43,329 nt of DNA from NCBI GenBank assembly GCA_020832225.1, contig JAFIFA010000222.1, positions 1 to 43,329 of the forward strand. Reading direction: 5' to 3'. A program made the translations under genes and the position numbers. This document shows, one piece after another, positions 23,559 through 31,656 of this stretch. The notes under the pieces were generated by a model, which worked only from the letters and a program-made list of their open reading frames with translations, was not told the origin of the DNA and searched no databases. Positions within the stretch are counted from its first letter, which is position 1. Every line of letters begins with the position of its first letter. This stretch comes from Balneolaceae bacterium (GTDB lineage: Bacteria > Bacteroidota > Rhodothermia > Balneolales > Balneolaceae).

Positions 23559-26120
23559 TTGATGAATCTAAACTCCACATTTTCAGCAGGTTTCCGGCAT
23601 GAATCTGCGCTAAGTGAGTTTGGGAATATCGACTTTCAGATCAATGCTTCCGGAGCGGATTGGAATGGAATGGAGTTCAACGACAGCTACGCCAACATAT
23701 CAGTTCGAAACGACTCTCTTCAGGTTAAGCAGCATTTTGTAAGAAGTGATGATATCGCACTCGAAACATCTCTCAGCGGAAAAATGAGCCGGGGTAAGCT
23801 GGAGATGGCCATCAATGAATTTATGGTGGGTTCACCCGACTATAACTGGCGCGCTGAAAATCGTCCGCTCATAACCTATACAGAAGATAACCGCCTCACA
23901 TTGGACCGATTCAGGCTAACCAGTGATAATGATCTGGTTGAGATAAATGGCACGTTCAGCTCCAGCCATGAAGACTCTGTGCAATACCGCCTGGAGAATT
24001 TCGATCTGAGCCGGGTTTCGGATCTGATTGGTGGCAGAATAACCTTTTCAGGGATTACGAATGGTGATTTTGTGACCCGATCACTTCTGGATGCACCCAC
24101 AATTCAGGGACAGATTGAGGTTGATAACGGCCGTATTCTGGATCGGGTGATTGGTGATGTCTCATTAAATAGCGTCTATAATCCGGATGAGGATCGCTTT
24201 GATACCGATCTTCTCATCTACACCGATCCTGAAAAGTATGGCGACTATCTTGAGGAGAATGATGGAAACGGGCATGATCTCCGCTTCACCGGCTATTTTA
24301 AAGTGCCCGAATATGAGGAGGATGACTTCCTCTACTTTGATGCTGATCTCCGTCAGATCGATATGTGGATTGTCACATTTATTGCACCCGTAGTTGTAAT
24401 CGACATGGAGGGAAGCTCAAGCGGTACCGGGTTTGTAAGGGCCTCTCCTTCCGATTACGACTTTGAAGGCACTTTTGATATCACCGATGTCTATGGCGTA
24501 CCCTTTTTCACCAATGTAGGGTACAATCTAAATGGAGAGCTGATTTTCAACCGGGAGGATGGTCTGCTGTTCAACGATATCCGTCTGGAAGATCGCAACG
24601 GGGGTACAGGTACACTCTTTGGCCAGGTGGATCTGGATGACTTCTCTCCGGAATCATTTCTTGATCTCACCCTCGATATGAATAACCTGGAGTTTATGAA
24701 CAATCCGCCCGATCCGGATGTACCGTTCTACTCCAATCTCTATGGAACCGGGCAGGCAAGAATTACGGGGTCCAATTTCAGTCCGTTTCTGAGAAGCGTC
24801 TCCACCATCAATCTCACATCGGATTCAAGAATCTCAATTCCGCTTGAAGAGGAGATCGAGTTTGAACAGGATCGTCGATTCATTCAGTTTGTCGATTCGT
24901 TTGATCTCTCTCTTCTCGAACAGCGCTCCCGTGAGCGAGATGAAGCGGGGGGCAATGGAAATGGCGAAGAGGAGGAGCTTACCTTTATTGAACGCTTTAC
25001 GATGGACCTCAGCTTTGCAGCGAATGATCCAATCAACGTCCGGCTCATTTTTGATCCTGTCACCAATGAAATTCTCAACTCCAACGGTACCGGTCAGATG
25101 CGGCTCTTACTGGAGGATCAGGATTTGAGCATGTTTGGCCGATACAACATCCAGAGCGGAGACTATCAGTTTGTGAGTGGCGATATTTTTACCCGTCGCT
25201 TTACCCTTCAGGAAGGCGGGTCGATTAGCTGGCAGGGAGATTTGATTGATGCAGGTCTTAACGTAACTGCCGTCTATCGGGCGCGCCCGAATATCAGCTC
25301 ACTGCTGTCCACTCAGGCTGCAGCACAGCAGGATACCGGCCAGCGGATACCGGTTGAGCTCGTACTTCAGATTGGCGGAACCATAACTGAGGTTGAAAAC
25401 GACTTCTTCTTCCGTGTGCCAACCGGTGTTGAGGGAACACTCGATCCAACCATCGCCACCCAGATCAATAATCTGAATCAAAATGAGGAGCTTAAACTGA
25501 TCCAGGCGACCAGTATTTTGTTAAGTGGGAATTTCCTGCCATATTCAGATGCACAGGGGTTAGGGCTCGGAGAAGGCATTACAGGCACTTCAGCCGTGGT
25601 TAACCCCCTGCTGAGCAGCCAGGTTATTAACCCTCTGCTCTCAGATCAGATTAATTCTCTCCTGAGAAGTGATATAACATTTGATATTGACCTGAACCTG
25701 ACCGCATTTAATGAAGTGGATTTGGGCGTTGCACTCAGACTATTTGACGATAGAGTGATCCTGCGGCGGGAAGGACAGATTACAGGTGAACAGAGTGATA
25801 TTGGTGATTTAGGGGCAACTTACCGAATCAACCGGATTTTTTCTTTAACAGCTTTTCACAGACAGGACCCCACACTGAGTTATACAAGCGGTGTGGAGAC
25901 AAGACAGTCTCAACAGATGAACGGAATGGGACTTGAAGCTCAGGTACAATTTAATACCTGGCAGGGATTCAGGCAGAGAATGTCTGCCGCTATACGGGGC
26001 ATGTTTGGCCTCAGGCGGGATGATGACGAGAGCGAGAGCGAACGCGAAGCTGAAGAACCAGCTACGGTTGCCGGAAATCAAAATATAATCCGAATAGAAA
26101 ATATTTCAATAGATGAGTAA
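23559..26120 (+). CDS. TamB-like protein, 3' part with the conserved C-terminal domain
   Basis: This 853-residue ORF continues the preceding one in the same frame. It contains more beta-rich repeats and, from about residue 500, the conserved TamB C-terminal domain (for example GRYNIQSGDYQFVSGDIFTRRF and EGGSISWQGDLIDAGLNVTA). Alone it has no signal peptide or membrane anchor, so it could not reach the periplasm; this argues that it belongs to one full-length protein. The first codon is TTG (23559) with ATG directly after it (23562). GGGAG lies 11-12 bases upstream, so reinitiation cannot be excluded. The 3' end overlaps rnr by 8 bases. Confidence 0.85.
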   Translation: MMNLNSTFSAGFRHESALSEFGNIDFQINASGADWNGMEFNDSYANISVRNDSLQVKQHFVRSDDIALETSLSGKMSRGKLEMAINEFMVGSPDYNWRAENRPLITYTEDNRLTLDRFRLTSDNDLVEINGTFSSSHEDSVQYRLENFDLSRVSDLIGGRITFSGITNGDFVTRSLLDAPTIQGQIEVDNGRILDRVIGDVSLNSVYNPDEDRFDTDLLIYTDPEKYGDYLEENDGNGHDLRFTGYFKVPEYEEDDFLYFDADLRQIDMWIVTFIAPVVVIDMEGSSSGTGFVRASPSDYDFEGTFDITDVYGVPFFTNVGYNLNGELIFNREDGLLFNDIRLEDRNGGTGTLFGQVDLDDFSPESFLDLTLDMNNLEFMNNPPDPDVPFYSNLYGTGQARITGSNFSPFLRSVSTINLTSDSRISIPLEEEIEFEQDRRFIQFVDSFDLSLLEQRSRERDEAGGNGNGEEEELTFIERFTMDLSFAANDPINVRLIFDPVTNEILNSNGTGQMRLLLEDQDLSMFGRYNIQSGDYQFVSGDIFTRRFTLQEGGSISWQGDLIDAGLNVTAVYRARPNISSLLSTQAAAQQDTGQRIPVELVLQIGGTITEVENDFFFRVPTGVEGTLDPTIATQINNLNQNEELKLIQATSILLSGNFLPYSDAQGLGLGEGITGTSAVVNPLLSSQVINPLLSDQINSLLRSDITFDIDLNLTAFNEVDLGVALRLFDDRVILRREGQITGEQSDIGDLGATYRINRIFSLTAFHRQDPTLSYTSGVETRQSQQMNGMGLEAQVQFNTWQGFRQRMSAAIRGMFGLRRDDDESESEREAEEPATVAGNQNIIRIENISIDE

Positions 26121-28269
26121 AGACAGATTAAGTTCATTAGAAAAGAAAATTATAGAGCTTCTCAAATCGTATCCAGACGCCTCAATACCAACTCCACTCC
26201 TTCTCGACGCGCTTTCATTGAAGAATAAAAAAGGTGGTAAAAAACTGAAAACCGCTATCAACAGGCTTAAACAGCTTGGCCACATACGCGTAAGCAAGGG
26301 GAACCTTGTACGGCTGAACGAAGCCGTAGAGAGCGATAAAAATATTTATGTAGGTAAACTGGACGTTACCAGCCACGGTGATGGCTATGTAATTGTTGAA
26401 GGGCGCGACCAGGATATCAAAATTTCAAGACGTTACCTGGGAACCGCACTGAATGGTGATAAGGTAAAAGTACGTCTTACCGGATATCACAGAAAAAACA
26501 ACAAACCTCTCGGAAGGATTGAAGAGATTGTGAGCCGTGCCAATACAACATTTGTTGGTAAACTAAAGGAAGAGGCAAAAAACACCTTCCTCATTGAGGC
26601 CGACATGCAATCATCAAGGGTAGACTTCTTTGTGGACCCAAAAGATCTGAACGGAGCCAAACCGGGCGAAAAGGTATCGTTCAAACTGGTGCAGTGGGAA
26701 GATGTGCGAGGGTACCCTCAGGCAGCCATTACGGCCTCACTCGGAAAAGCCGGAAGCAACGAAGCCAATGTTCTTTCCATACTAGCTGAAAAACAGTTCG
26801 CACCTCAGTTCCCCCGTGAAGTAGAGGCTTTTGCGGAGAATATCCCGGAAGTTATAACCGAAGAGGAGATCGGACGGCGTCGAGATATGCGTGAAGAGGT
26901 CGTTCTCACGATTGACCCTGCCGATGCCAAGGATTTTGACGATGGCCTGAGTATTGAAATGCTGGACAACGGCAACTACTATCTCGGTGTTCACATTGCT
27001 GACGTAACTCACTACATGCCGGTAGCCACAGTATTGGATGAAGAGGCATTTGAGCGCGGTACCAGTGTCTATCTGGTAGACCGCGTGATCCCAATGATGC
27101 CGGAAAAACTGAGTAACGGTGTCTGCAGCCTCCGCCCCCACGAAGATAAACTGGCATACAGCTGCTTCATGGAGATTGCACCAAATGGAAAGCTCGAAAA
27201 CTACACCATTGAAGAGACGGTAATCCACTCCAAACAGAGATTTGTCTATGATGAGGTTCAGGAGATTCTTGATGGAAAAGCAGATCATAAGTTTAAAAAA
27301 GAGCTGCAAATTCTTGAAAAGCTCGCAAAAACACTGCTGGATAAGCGCTTTAAGGAAGGCTCCATCAACTTTGAGACACCTGAGCCCAAATTTGTACTGG
27401 ATGATGAGGGCAGGCCCATTGATGTGATCGTAAAGGAACGTCTGTTCGCTCACAAGCTGATTGAGGAGTGCATGCTTATGGCCAACAAAACGGTATCACT
27501 ATACATTGACACACTCAGAACGAAGGTACGCGGTAAAAAGAGTGAAAAGAACGACCATCCGTTTCTCTACAGGGTTCACGGTCAGCCCGATCTCGAAAAG
27601 CTTCACAACATCAAGGAGACTGCAAGTCCGCTTGGCATCAACTTTGAACTGGACGGTGTAGTCTCTGCCTCAAAAATAAACAAGCTTTTAAAGCAGGTTG
27701 AGGGAACATCGGTTGAAAATATCATCAACGGTCTGATGTTGCGTTCCATGGCGAAAGCAGAGTATTCACCTAAGAATATTGGTCATTTCGGACTCGGTTT
27801 TTCACATTACGCACACTTTACGAGTCCAATCCGCCGTTACCCTGATGTTATCGTTCATCGATTACTCAAGCGATATCACTCAGGTGCGAACGAATATACG
27901 TTTGATCAGCTTGTAGAGATCGGCGCTCATTGTAGTGAAAGAGAGCGTTTTGCTGTAGAAGCCGAACGTGACTCTGTGAAACTCAAGCAGGTTGAGTATC
28001 TTTCAGAAAGGCTTGGCCAGACATTTGATGGAACCATAAGCGGAGTAACGGAGAACGGCATTTACGTACAAATAAACGACATATACTGTGAAGGAATGAT
28101 ACGCGTTAGCGATCTTAAAGATGATTACTACGTATATCACCCTAAGCTGCACTGCTTAACGGGCCGTTCCAAGGGCAAACAATTTCGTCTCGGGGATTCC
28201 ATTAAAGTTAAAGTGGTGCGAACAGATCTGGACCGGCGCCAGATCGATCTCGAACTTTCAGCCCATTAA
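26113..28269 (+). CDS. rnr: Ribonuclease R
   Basis: RNase R is a 3'-to-5' exoribonuclease able to degrade structured RNA, and it removes non-stop and rRNA fragments. The 718-residue protein has an N-terminal winged-helix-like segment, cold-shock-type OB folds (about residues 75-220), the RNB catalytic domain with TIDPADAKDFDDGL (about 263-276) and a C-terminal S1 domain. The basic C-tail of E. coli RNase R is absent. Its ATG lies inside the end of the TamB-like gene (8-base overlap). Presence in the same run as rqcH is notable because both act on stalled translation. Confidence 0.96.
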   Translation: MSKDRLSSLEKKIIELLKSYPDASIPTPLLLDALSLKNKKGGKKLKTAINRLKQLGHIRVSKGNLVRLNEAVESDKNIYVGKLDVTSHGDGYVIVEGRDQDIKISRRYLGTALNGDKVKVRLTGYHRKNNKPLGRIEEIVSRANTTFVGKLKEEAKNTFLIEADMQSSRVDFFVDPKDLNGAKPGEKVSFKLVQWEDVRGYPQAAITASLGKAGSNEANVLSILAEKQFAPQFPREVEAFAENIPEVITEEEIGRRRDMREEVVLTIDPADAKDFDDGLSIEMLDNGNYYLGVHIADVTHYMPVATVLDEEAFERGTSVYLVDRVIPMMPEKLSNGVCSLRPHEDKLAYSCFMEIAPNGKLENYTIEETVIHSKQRFVYDEVQEILDGKADHKFKKELQILEKLAKTLLDKRFKEGSINFETPEPKFVLDDEGRPIDVIVKERLFAHKLIEECMLMANKTVSLYIDTLRTKVRGKKSEKNDHPFLYRVHGQPDLEKLHNIKETASPLGINFELDGVVSASKINKLLKQVEGTSVENIINGLMLRSMAKAEYSPKNIGHFGLGFSHYAHFTSPIRRYPDVIVHRLLKRYHSGANEYTFDQLVEIGAHCSERERFAVEAERDSVKLKQVEYLSERLGQTFDGTISGVTENGIYVQINDIYCEGMIRVSDLKDDYYVYHPKLHCLTGRSKGKQFRLGDSIKVKVVRTDLDRRQIDLELSAH

Positions 28270-28287: not shown

Positions 28288-30012
28288 ATGCGTATGTTGA
28301 AAAAAACGCTACTGATTGGCATCCTTACACTTTTCATCGGAACTGTTGCAGCTGAAGAGCTGCTTGCCCAGTATTTCTTTTTCGGAAAAAACCGGGTTCA
28401 GTATGAACGCTTCGACTGGCGCTATATCGAAACAGAGCATTTCGATATCTACTACTACGACTCCAAAAACTACCACCTGGCACAGTTTACGGCAGAAACA
28501 GTAGAAAGCTCTCTGAAGCAGTTAAATGAGGATTTTGGCGATCAGCTTACTGACAGAATCCCCGTTATCATCTATGATTCGCACAGCGACTTCTCCCAAA
28601 CCAATGTGGTTAGGTTACCGGTTGATGCTCAGGGAATCGGGGGTGTTACCGACAAGTTCAAAAACCGGATGACACAACCTTTTATGGGAGACTATGCCGA
28701 TTTCCGGCGTACCATTCAGCATGAGCTTGTTCACGCCTATATAAACGATGTTTACTATGGCGGTTCCGTTCAATCAATCGTTCAGAATAACATTCAGCTC
28801 GTCTTTCCGCTTTGGTTTGAGGAGGGGCTTGCAGAGTATCTGGCTCTCGGTTGGGATACCCAGACCGATATGTACATGCGCGATGCCGTTCTCAACAACT
28901 ACCTGCCTCCAATACCTCAGCTTCGTGGATTTTTTGCATACAGAGGAGGTCAGGCTTTCTGGTACTACATCGCCGACCAGTATGGGCGGCCAAAAATTAC
29001 CGAGATTCTTCAACGAATTAAGAGCACCCGAAATATCCGACAGTCTCTTGTCCAGTCTTTGGGTCTTGAAATCGATGAGCTATCTGAACGATGGCATGAA
29101 TACTGGCGCCAGCGCTACTTCCCTGAAGTGGCCGAGCGACAGTCCCTCAGCAGCGTAGCTACCCAGATTACAACACGTGCGCGTTCGGGTTCATACAATA
29201 CAAGCCCTGCGATTTCTCCCCGTGGAGACAAAATTGCCATGATCTCCAACAGAAGGGGTGTATTTGATGTTATTGTGGTTGATGCCAACACCGGAGAGAG
29301 GCTCAAAACTGTGATCAGCGGTGCAGATAACCCGATGTTTGAGGAGCTTAACATCCTCAACCCGAATCTAAGTTGGTCGCCTGATGGTAGCCAGATTGCC
29401 CTCTCAAGTAAATCTCAGGGATCATACAATCTCGCTATAGTGGATTATGAATCCGGCAGGTCATCCACTATTCGATTCCCGGATTTGGATGCTATCAACT
29501 CGGTTGCATGGTCTCCCGATGGGCAAAAGATCGCTTTTGATGGTAATATCGGACCGTACCAGGATATATTTGTTTACAACCTGGAAACCAGTGAATTTAA
29601 AAATCTGACTAATGATGTCTTCACAGACAAGGAACCTGCATGGGGACCAAATTCAGATTTCGTCTACTTTGTATCCAATCGTGGCGGGGTACTTCGCCCG
29701 GGTCAGGCCTTGGCAGGTTACTCGATTATGCAGGACGACTCCTTCTATGAGACCGACCTCTACAGGGTTCGCGTTGGAAACAGCCGAATAGAGCGCCTTA
29801 CAAACACTCCTACATGGTCAGAAACCCAGCCAACGCTTACCAGAGATGGCAGATTACTTTTCGTATCTGATCAGAACGGAATTCCAAATATCTATGAGTA
29901 TGATCTTTCTAGCCGTACGGTACACCCAATTACTGATCTTCAGTCAGGTGTTATGCAGATCTCCGTTTCGGCTGATGGTACCAGACTTGCCTTTAACTCA
30001 CTGAACCGGTGA
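28288..30012 (+). CDS. Peptidase-MA-like / PD40 beta-propeller protein, 5' part cut by an in-frame TGA
   Basis: The 574-residue piece starts with a signal peptide (residues 1-28), then a gluzincin-like domain with HELVH at 145-149 and the downstream WFEEGLAEY near 176-184, as in peptidase-MA-like proteins. From about residue 300 come TolB/PD40 propeller repeats (for example LSWSPDGSQIALSS, AWSPDGQKIAFDG). The last blade stops at TGA 30010-30012 in the middle of its hairpin. The following ORF is in the same frame and holds a beta-barrel. Proteins of about 1,100 residues with exactly this domain order are familiar in this group, so this is probably one gene. Confidence 0.85.
   Translation: MRMLKKTLLIGILTLFIGTVAAEELLAQYFFFGKNRVQYERFDWRYIETEHFDIYYYDSKNYHLAQFTAETVESSLKQLNEDFGDQLTDRIPVIIYDSHSDFSQTNVVRLPVDAQGIGGVTDKFKNRMTQPFMGDYADFRRTIQHELVHAYINDVYYGGSVQSIVQNNIQLVFPLWFEEGLAEYLALGWDTQTDMYMRDAVLNNYLPPIPQLRGFFAYRGGQAFWYYIADQYGRPKITEILQRIKSTRNIRQSLVQSLGLEIDELSERWHEYWRQRYFPEVAERQSLSSVATQITTRARSGSYNTSPAISPRGDKIAMISNRRGVFDVIVVDANTGERLKTVISGADNPMFEELNILNPNLSWSPDGSQIALSSKSQGSYNLAIVDYESGRSSTIRFPDLDAINSVAWSPDGQKIAFDGNIGPYQDIFVYNLETSEFKNLTNDVFTDKEPAWGPNSDFVYFVSNRGGVLRPGQALAGYSIMQDDSFYETDLYRVRVGNSRIERLTNTPTWSETQPTLTRDGRLLFVSDQNGIPNIYEYDLSSRTVHPITDLQSGVMQISVSADGTRLAFNSLNR
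30010..30012 (+). other. In-frame stop TGA inside the PD40/barrel gene
   Basis: The frame reads AAC CGG TGA TTC CCG GAT ATC TTC ATG. Aligned by eye with the other blades (SSKSQGSYNLAIV, SNRRGVFDVIVV), the stop occupies the position of the conserved turn glycine, so GGA to TGA is the simplest explanation. TGA is used as a normal stop by aroB, dapA and rqcH in this window, so it is not a reassigned codon. Confidence 0.85.
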
Positions 30013-30027
30013 TTCCCGGATATCTTC

Positions 30028-31656
30028 ATGATACGTTCGCCTTTCGATCGGAGAATGGATCGCACGCTCACCAGAAATGCATGGGCGCGCGAACGTGATG
30101 AAACCACTCCGGGCGACAGGGTTCCTGCCATTCGATATGTACAGGAGATGATTGCCAATCGCGAGCGAGGTAACATGATTACCGCACGCACATTGACAGA
30201 CGCCCCCGTTACAGGACACGATCGAATGATACAGGTAGAGCCACCTGATACAGCTGAGGCTGATACCACAAGACCCCGAAACGAGCGTGTTGATTTCCGT
30301 AACTATCAGTTTGGAGAAGCCGTTGTTCGCGATACCACTATTACCCTTCGCGATGATCCCCGCAAGTTTGAACCGGACGATAATCTAACCGAAGATGGAT
30401 ACTATCAGCCTAAACGTTACAGGCTGCAGTTCTCCCCCGACTTCAGTTACGCGGCCGGACAGCTTAGCACCTACTACGGAACATCGGCTTTCGCTTTTGT
30501 TTCATTAACCGATCTGTTTGGTGATCACGAGATCTCCTTCGGTTCAAACCTGGTATTTGATCTCAGGAATAGCGATTACACATTCCAATATGGATACCTG
30601 AGAAACAGAACCAACTTCTTTGCCTCATTTTTCCACCAGTCTCAAAACTTCCAGACATTTTTCGGCGAGCTTTTGAGATTCAGGACATACGGAATGTCGA
30701 TTGACTTTCAGTACCCACTCAATCGTTATCAGCGATTTGATTATGGAGTGTCGGGTATAGGTATTGCCAGAGACTTCAGCTCTGTTCGTGGTGTGGGTAA
30801 TCAGCAACTCAGTAATGAGCGAAGCTACTTTCTCTACCCGCAGGTTACATTTACCGGAGATTACACTATTCCCGGCTTTATAACACCCCGGGGCGGAAGC
30901 AGGTACTCCGTACGTCTCTCAGGAAGCCCGCCACTCGGTTCACAAACGCCACAGTTTGCTACACTTCTTGGTGATTATCGACAATACTTTGATCTCGGAT
31001 CAGGCTATTCGTTCGCATTAAGAGGTTCTGCTGCTGCATCAGTAGGCCGGGACTCCCAAACTTTCTTTATGGGTGGTATGCTTGGCTGGATCAATCAGCG
31101 ATGGAGCGACGCCGAAATTCCGTTTGAACGGCTGACTGATACATTCTTTACACAGCCGGCAACCCCACTAAGAGGGCACGAATTTAATAGTCTCTTTGGT
31201 GATAAGTTCACTCTCTTAAACGCAGAGTTCCGGTTCCCCTTATTTGCAGCAATCCTGCCCGGTCCGGTTCCGATATTGCCTCTATACAATATTACGGCTA
31301 CAGCCTTTGTTGATGCAGGTACCGCATGGGGCTTCGATATTCCTTACTCAAGGTTCACGGATCAGAACAACAACCCGATTGTCTACTTTGAAAACCCGTC
31401 TCGTTTTGAAGGGCGTTTAGCGGACAAACGGGAAGAGTTCTTAAACCCGAATACCGGTCTGTTACGAGAAGGAACACCACAGGATGGAGATGTCCCGGTT
31501 ACCTTTGTGGATGGTGATATCCTGGTTGGTGCCGGATTTGGCCTTCGCACAATACTTCTGGGGCTCCCTTTCCGATATGATATTGGCTGGCCTTACCAGA
31601 GAAGCGGATTTGGAAGCCGACCTATCCACTACTTCTCCATAGGCATCGATTTCTAA
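30028..31656 (+). CDS. BamA/TamA-like outer-membrane beta-barrel, 3' part of the PD40 protein
   Basis: This 542-residue ORF continues the frame of the previous one. After about 120 residues of linker it is built of alternating amphipathic strands with aromatic girdles, for example NYQFGEAVVRDTTI and RYRLQFSPDFSYAAGQ, and ends with HYFSIGIDF, a C-terminal phenylalanine typical of outer-membrane barrels recognised by BAM. It has no signal peptide of its own, so export would require the upstream piece. Separate function as a free ORF starting at ATG 30028 is therefore unlikely. A terminator follows 21 bases after the stop. Confidence 0.82.
   Translation: MIRSPFDRRMDRTLTRNAWARERDETTPGDRVPAIRYVQEMIANRERGNMITARTLTDAPVTGHDRMIQVEPPDTAEADTTRPRNERVDFRNYQFGEAVVRDTTITLRDDPRKFEPDDNLTEDGYYQPKRYRLQFSPDFSYAAGQLSTYYGTSAFAFVSLTDLFGDHEISFGSNLVFDLRNSDYTFQYGYLRNRTNFFASFFHQSQNFQTFFGELLRFRTYGMSIDFQYPLNRYQRFDYGVSGIGIARDFSSVRGVGNQQLSNERSYFLYPQVTFTGDYTIPGFITPRGGSRYSVRLSGSPPLGSQTPQFATLLGDYRQYFDLGSGYSFALRGSAAASVGRDSQTFFMGGMLGWINQRWSDAEIPFERLTDTFFTQPATPLRGHEFNSLFGDKFTLLNAEFRFPLFAAILPGPVPILPLYNITATAFVDAGTAWGFDIPYSRFTDQNNNPIVYFENPSRFEGRLADKREEFLNPNTGLLREGTPQDGDVPVTFVDGDILVGAGFGLRTILLGLPFRYDIGWPYQRSGFGSRPIHYFSIGIDF

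Follow-up and report, generated by a model that had tools for sequence, protein, structure and literature searches.

An Interrupted Gene for an Outer-Membrane Protein

The question raised by this locus in the window (the whole 43,329-nucleotide stretch of DNA that was analysed, from a member of the Balneolaceae) is whether a single in-frame TGA in a large envelope gene marks the loss of a protein, an unusual reading of the codon, a division into two proteins, or a stop that the organism does not carry at all. The gene forms a single frame of 1,122 codons in which the TGA is the sole interruption, and the two open reading frames on either side of it lie in one and the same frame (Table 1). In the AlphaFold model, strands 566-572 and 577-583 form a hairpin in the last propeller blade, with the TGA at the turn between them, and the truncated protein would thus be without the last strand of that blade.

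The stop codon aligns to glycine in all 41 genus and family relatives covering the site, with GGT (14), GGC (12), GGA (8) and GGG (7) all in use, which bears out the initial annotation in its claim of a gene cut at a conserved blade glycine. Its further proposal of a GGA to TGA event stands in so far as a nonsense codon has replaced that of a conserved glycine in the turn; GGA as the starting codon is plausible, but the sister genome has GGC. The gene was found in 125 of the 129 genomes of the order, including all 84 of high quality, and is probably important. An internal stop is present in the window genome only (0 of the other 124), and the partial matches in other genomes mostly look like contig ends. 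One genome, G050, at first seemed to be broken at this junction too; it was rejected, the apparent break being NN in its assembly.

These comparisons bear directly on the possibility that propeller and barrel are truly two proteins, the second re-initiated at the ATG at 30028, 15 bases past the stop. The presence of an ATG just downstream is in keeping with such a split, but a natural boundary was found here in none of the homologues compared across the propeller-barrel junction, the cut lies inside a blade rather than between domains, and no Shine-Dalgarno-like run was seen by eye. In addition, nothing resembling a signal peptide occurs in the 3′ ORF, where hydropathy over 12 residues peaks at 0.7 (versus 2.5 for the 5′ ORF), in agreement with the earlier view that the barrel half is not viable alone. 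A true split is accordingly very improbable. With no internal stop in any relative, and a 3′ half that is constrained and free of a signal peptide, the locus is best read as a single gene with a stop that is either very young or not real.

Table 1. Coordinates of the interrupted gene, its neighbours and the further in-frame stops of the draft genome
Feature	Position	Strand	Evidence or remark
Interrupted gene, peptidase-MA/TolB-like propeller/putative Omp85-type barrel	28288..31656	+	Frame continuous except codon 575
5′ ORF, 574 aa, ends with the TGA: signal peptide, zincin, propeller minus last strand	28288..30012	+	
Peptidase MA (zincin) domain, residues ~40-290, HELVH and EEGLAEY	28405..29157	+	Pfam PF13485, E 7.5e-11
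TolB-like beta-propeller, residues ~297-583, cut in last blade	29176..30036	+	PD40, E 4.5e-23
In-frame TGA, stands for invariant glycine codon	30010..30012	+	
3′ ORF, 542 aa: linker and outer-membrane barrel, without signal peptide	30028..31656	+	
tamB homologue, 1,576 codons	21390..26120	+	One interruption, TAA 23508-23510 (codon 707)
Ribonuclease R gene, intact, between both broken genes	26113..28269	+	RNB domain, E 6e-114
TAA in pgsA, beside the CDP-alcohol phosphotransferase motif	L192 13414 (G000:C8:12962-13549)	-	One match in genome; intact in 27/27 genus mates
TGA in rmlA (RmlA-like sugar nucleotidyltransferase)	L301 5066 (G000:C8:24613-25323)		Intact in all matching genus mates
Two TAG in a SusC/RagA gene	L221 15680 and 16553 (G000:C38)		Single model spans both
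TAA in an alpha/beta hydrolase gene	L204 5516 (C20)		Pfam match spans the stop
TAA in a gene for another barrel protein	L295 934 (G000:C51)		

Architecture of the Encoded Protein

The locus encodes an exported outer-membrane protein in which a periplasmic zincin and a TolB-like propeller precede a putative BamA-type barrel. The zincin has the HExxH motif of peptidase MA with its downstream glutamate, the PF13485 match is above the cut-off, and residues H145, E146, H149, E179 and E183 are invariant in 23 sequences. The propeller is matched by TIGR02800 and, by Foldseek, resembles TolB (E about 1e-12). For the barrel, Foldseek pointed to BamA (E 4.5e-10), along with a weak TIGR03303 match (E 1e-4, well below the cut-off); the Pfam scan gave no Omp85 match for the barrel and no POTRA family, and in the model the propeller and a linker directly precede the barrel. 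The model has a mean pLDDT of 71, with the zincin and propeller mostly at 80-95 and the barrel moderate, and consists of a helical zincin domain, a propeller that extends as far as residue 583 and a barrel that starts at about 700.

Heinz and Lithgow (2014; PMC4104836) described a WD40-Omp85 subfamily of the Omp85/TpsB superfamily, POTRA-free proteins with an N-terminal TolB-like beta-propeller and a C-terminal 16-strand Omp85 barrel. The architecture found here fits that group plus a zincin: a TolB-like propeller is likewise fused to the N-terminal side of a barrel, here putatively of Omp85 type, and POTRA domains are likewise lacking, whereas the present protein adds the peptidase-MA domain at its N-terminus and has a barrel recognised by its fold and the weak TIGR03303 match, without a Pfam match.

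Constraint Downstream of the Stop

The 547 codons 3′ of the TGA contain no further stop or frameshift, and none of the 120 columns in this part that are invariant in 40 sequences is altered in the window. The dN 3′ of the stop is about 0.12, with pairwise dS saturated, for which reason a branch-specific dN/dS was dropped and the comparison was limited to dN and assigned replacements. As judged from these alignments, the 3′ half is still under strong purifying selection. The lack of a second lesion, the intact invariant columns and the low dN indicate that the stop is either very young on its branch or absent from the organism. The loss of constraint and the additional lesions that characterize a pseudogene were not found, although a lesion too young for decay would look alike.

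A genuine recent nonsense mutation, by which the strain lost the full-length protein along with TamB and retained at most a secreted zincin-propeller fragment, is a possible, if doubtful, explanation. It draws on a slight acceleration 3′ of the stop on the window branch, where the assigned replacements on the window and sister branches number 29 versus 21 in the 3′ half and 11 versus 32 in the 5′ half. This excess could reflect a slight relaxation after a real mutation; no weight was put on the imbalance, since similar ones occur on other branches. It is also in keeping with a mutation that the cuts fall in two envelope genes only 6.5 kb apart, with about 20 further genes compared in the window being intact. 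Against it stand the presence of the gene in every high-quality genome of the order, the absence of accompanying frameshifts and of visible decay 3′ of the stop, and a similar stop in the sole copy of pgsA, a gene of the generally essential kind.

The tamB Gene and Its Neighborhood

When the window's syntenic genes were compared with those of nine relatives, two proved to be cut by one in-frame stop each, the barrel gene and the tamB homologue (PF04357 TamB, E 1.8e-35, in the 3′ piece of the latter). The tamB gene is continuous at the TAA site in all nine syntenic relatives, and the ribonuclease R gene is intact against the same nine. Across about 125 genomes of the order, a mid-gene tamB break comparable to that of the window was noticed in G005 alone. 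The G005 gene (L314, G005:C9, about 856,600) goes out of frame at codon 706/707, the same codon as the window stop.

By its coordinates, the barrel gene closely follows tamB in genomes of several families of the order, with a gap of roughly one ribonuclease R gene between them, and the order and spacing of all three genes (tamB, ribonuclease R and the zincin-propeller-barrel gene) appear to be kept across several of these families. This apparent conservation of gene order suggests that TamB and the barrel protein may act together, and a functional link is a fair guess.

The Genetic Code and the Context of the Stop

The stop occupies the position of an invariant glycine, and UGA is read as glycine in SR1/Gracilibacteria. 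A changed code of this kind, or selenocysteine, is nevertheless essentially refuted: the interruptions elsewhere include TAA and TAG, and all three stop codons end long ORFs normally, TGA doing so in 104 of 284 in the sample, which upholds the initial annotation in treating TGA as an ordinary terminator. A SelA match was lacking in the genome, and the search for tRNA-Sec found none: the RF01852 matches whose anticodon was read were ordinary tRNAs, the best of them a serine tRNA. Among the tRNAs found, which form an incomplete set, none had a UCA anticodon or another anticodon that reads a stop. Class I release factors were matched as well, once in full and twice in part at contig ends. A code change, selenocysteine and a suppressor tRNA were all rejected on these grounds, given that TGA terminates normally and neither SelA nor such a tRNA was found.

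Scattered Stops Across the Draft Genome

The comparison was extended to about 695 kb of the same assembly, and eight in-frame stops in seven genes were counted in about 20% of the genome, four of them TAA, two TGA and two TAG. This count is a lower bound: of the coding-potential scans, the stricter one found neither of the stops in the window, and the relaxed one, which found the tamB stop, missed the TGA at 30010 and is of limited sensitivity. Frameshifts were absent among the genes compared by homology. In 1.21 Mb from relatives, the relaxed scan listed only entries that were judged by eye to be gene junctions or antisense frames, with no stop in mid-gene among them. A ninth candidate, a TAG in the gene for a probable envelope protein (L213 12140, C30), was noted from frame and codon usage only. 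With several in-frame stops scattered over the draft genome, what had looked like an event specific to one gene now reads more like a property of the assembly; the earlier reading of a single gene with a nonsense substitution stands, but it had missed the further stops.

The use of all three stop codons, the varied gene contexts, the lack of frameshifts and the cut in the only copy of pgsA, which is probably essential, point to scattered substitution errors. The TGA at 30010 is probably one of these, an error in the draft consensus rather than a mutation. It is not an evolved feature; most likely it belongs to a set of single-base errors scattered over the consensus of a draft of 231 contigs, and failing that, it arose very recently as a nonsense mutation among the cells sampled. 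An erroneous base or a mutation of very recent date, with no special mechanism, is the most likely reading. Roughly 4-5% of random coding substitutions yield a stop, and the eight stops found would correspond to errors at a few per 10,000 bases, which is an estimate only. The missense counterpart of such errors was sought among radical singletons, and radical replacements at otherwise invariant sites numbered 12 of 139 in the window versus 11 of 115 in the sister genome G024, no clear excess over background in a comparison of low power.

The stops might alternatively be read through at a useful rate, by a near-cognate tRNA or a suppressor, to give full-length protein. Purifying selection that persists 3′ of the stop, the interruption of an essential-type gene such as pgsA and the bacterial in-frame stops under selection already on record (PMC7918605) are all consistent with readthrough. 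It is nonetheless improbable, as the stop is absent from every relative, where programmed readthrough would have it conserved in orthologues (0 of 124 other genomes), all three stop codons are involved and normally terminate long ORFs, the RNA structure around the TGA at 30010 is unremarkable (z -1.0), and the genome yielded no SelA and, in its incomplete tRNA set, no stop-reading tRNA. A tolerance of UAA, UAG and UGA within important genes, whether by a general suppression of nonsense codons or by leaky termination, with full-length proteins still made from the cut genes, is hardly probable.

Known Parallels and Broader Meaning

The locus offers a caution, in that a striking lesion of one gene proved to have counterparts in several other genes of the same draft, and claims of gene loss or recoding made from that draft need checks at the level of the reads. 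Should the reads back all of the stops, including that in the sole pgsA copy, this bacterium, represented by a draft genome only, would become a test case for nonsense tolerance.

Two known cases can be set beside the stops described here. Belinky et al. (2021; PMC7918605) examined in-frame stops in bacterial genes and focused on those common to at least two species, which reduces artefacts; here too an isolated stop interrupts a gene on which purifying selection continues to act, but, unlike their cases, it was found in no second genome. In Deinococcus radiodurans, tamB (DR_1462-1460) appeared split in the database, and re-sequencing gave one ORF (PMC5382914). There too a large envelope gene was seemingly split, through gaps and base errors that shifted the frame, whereas the interruptions described here are single in-frame stops only.
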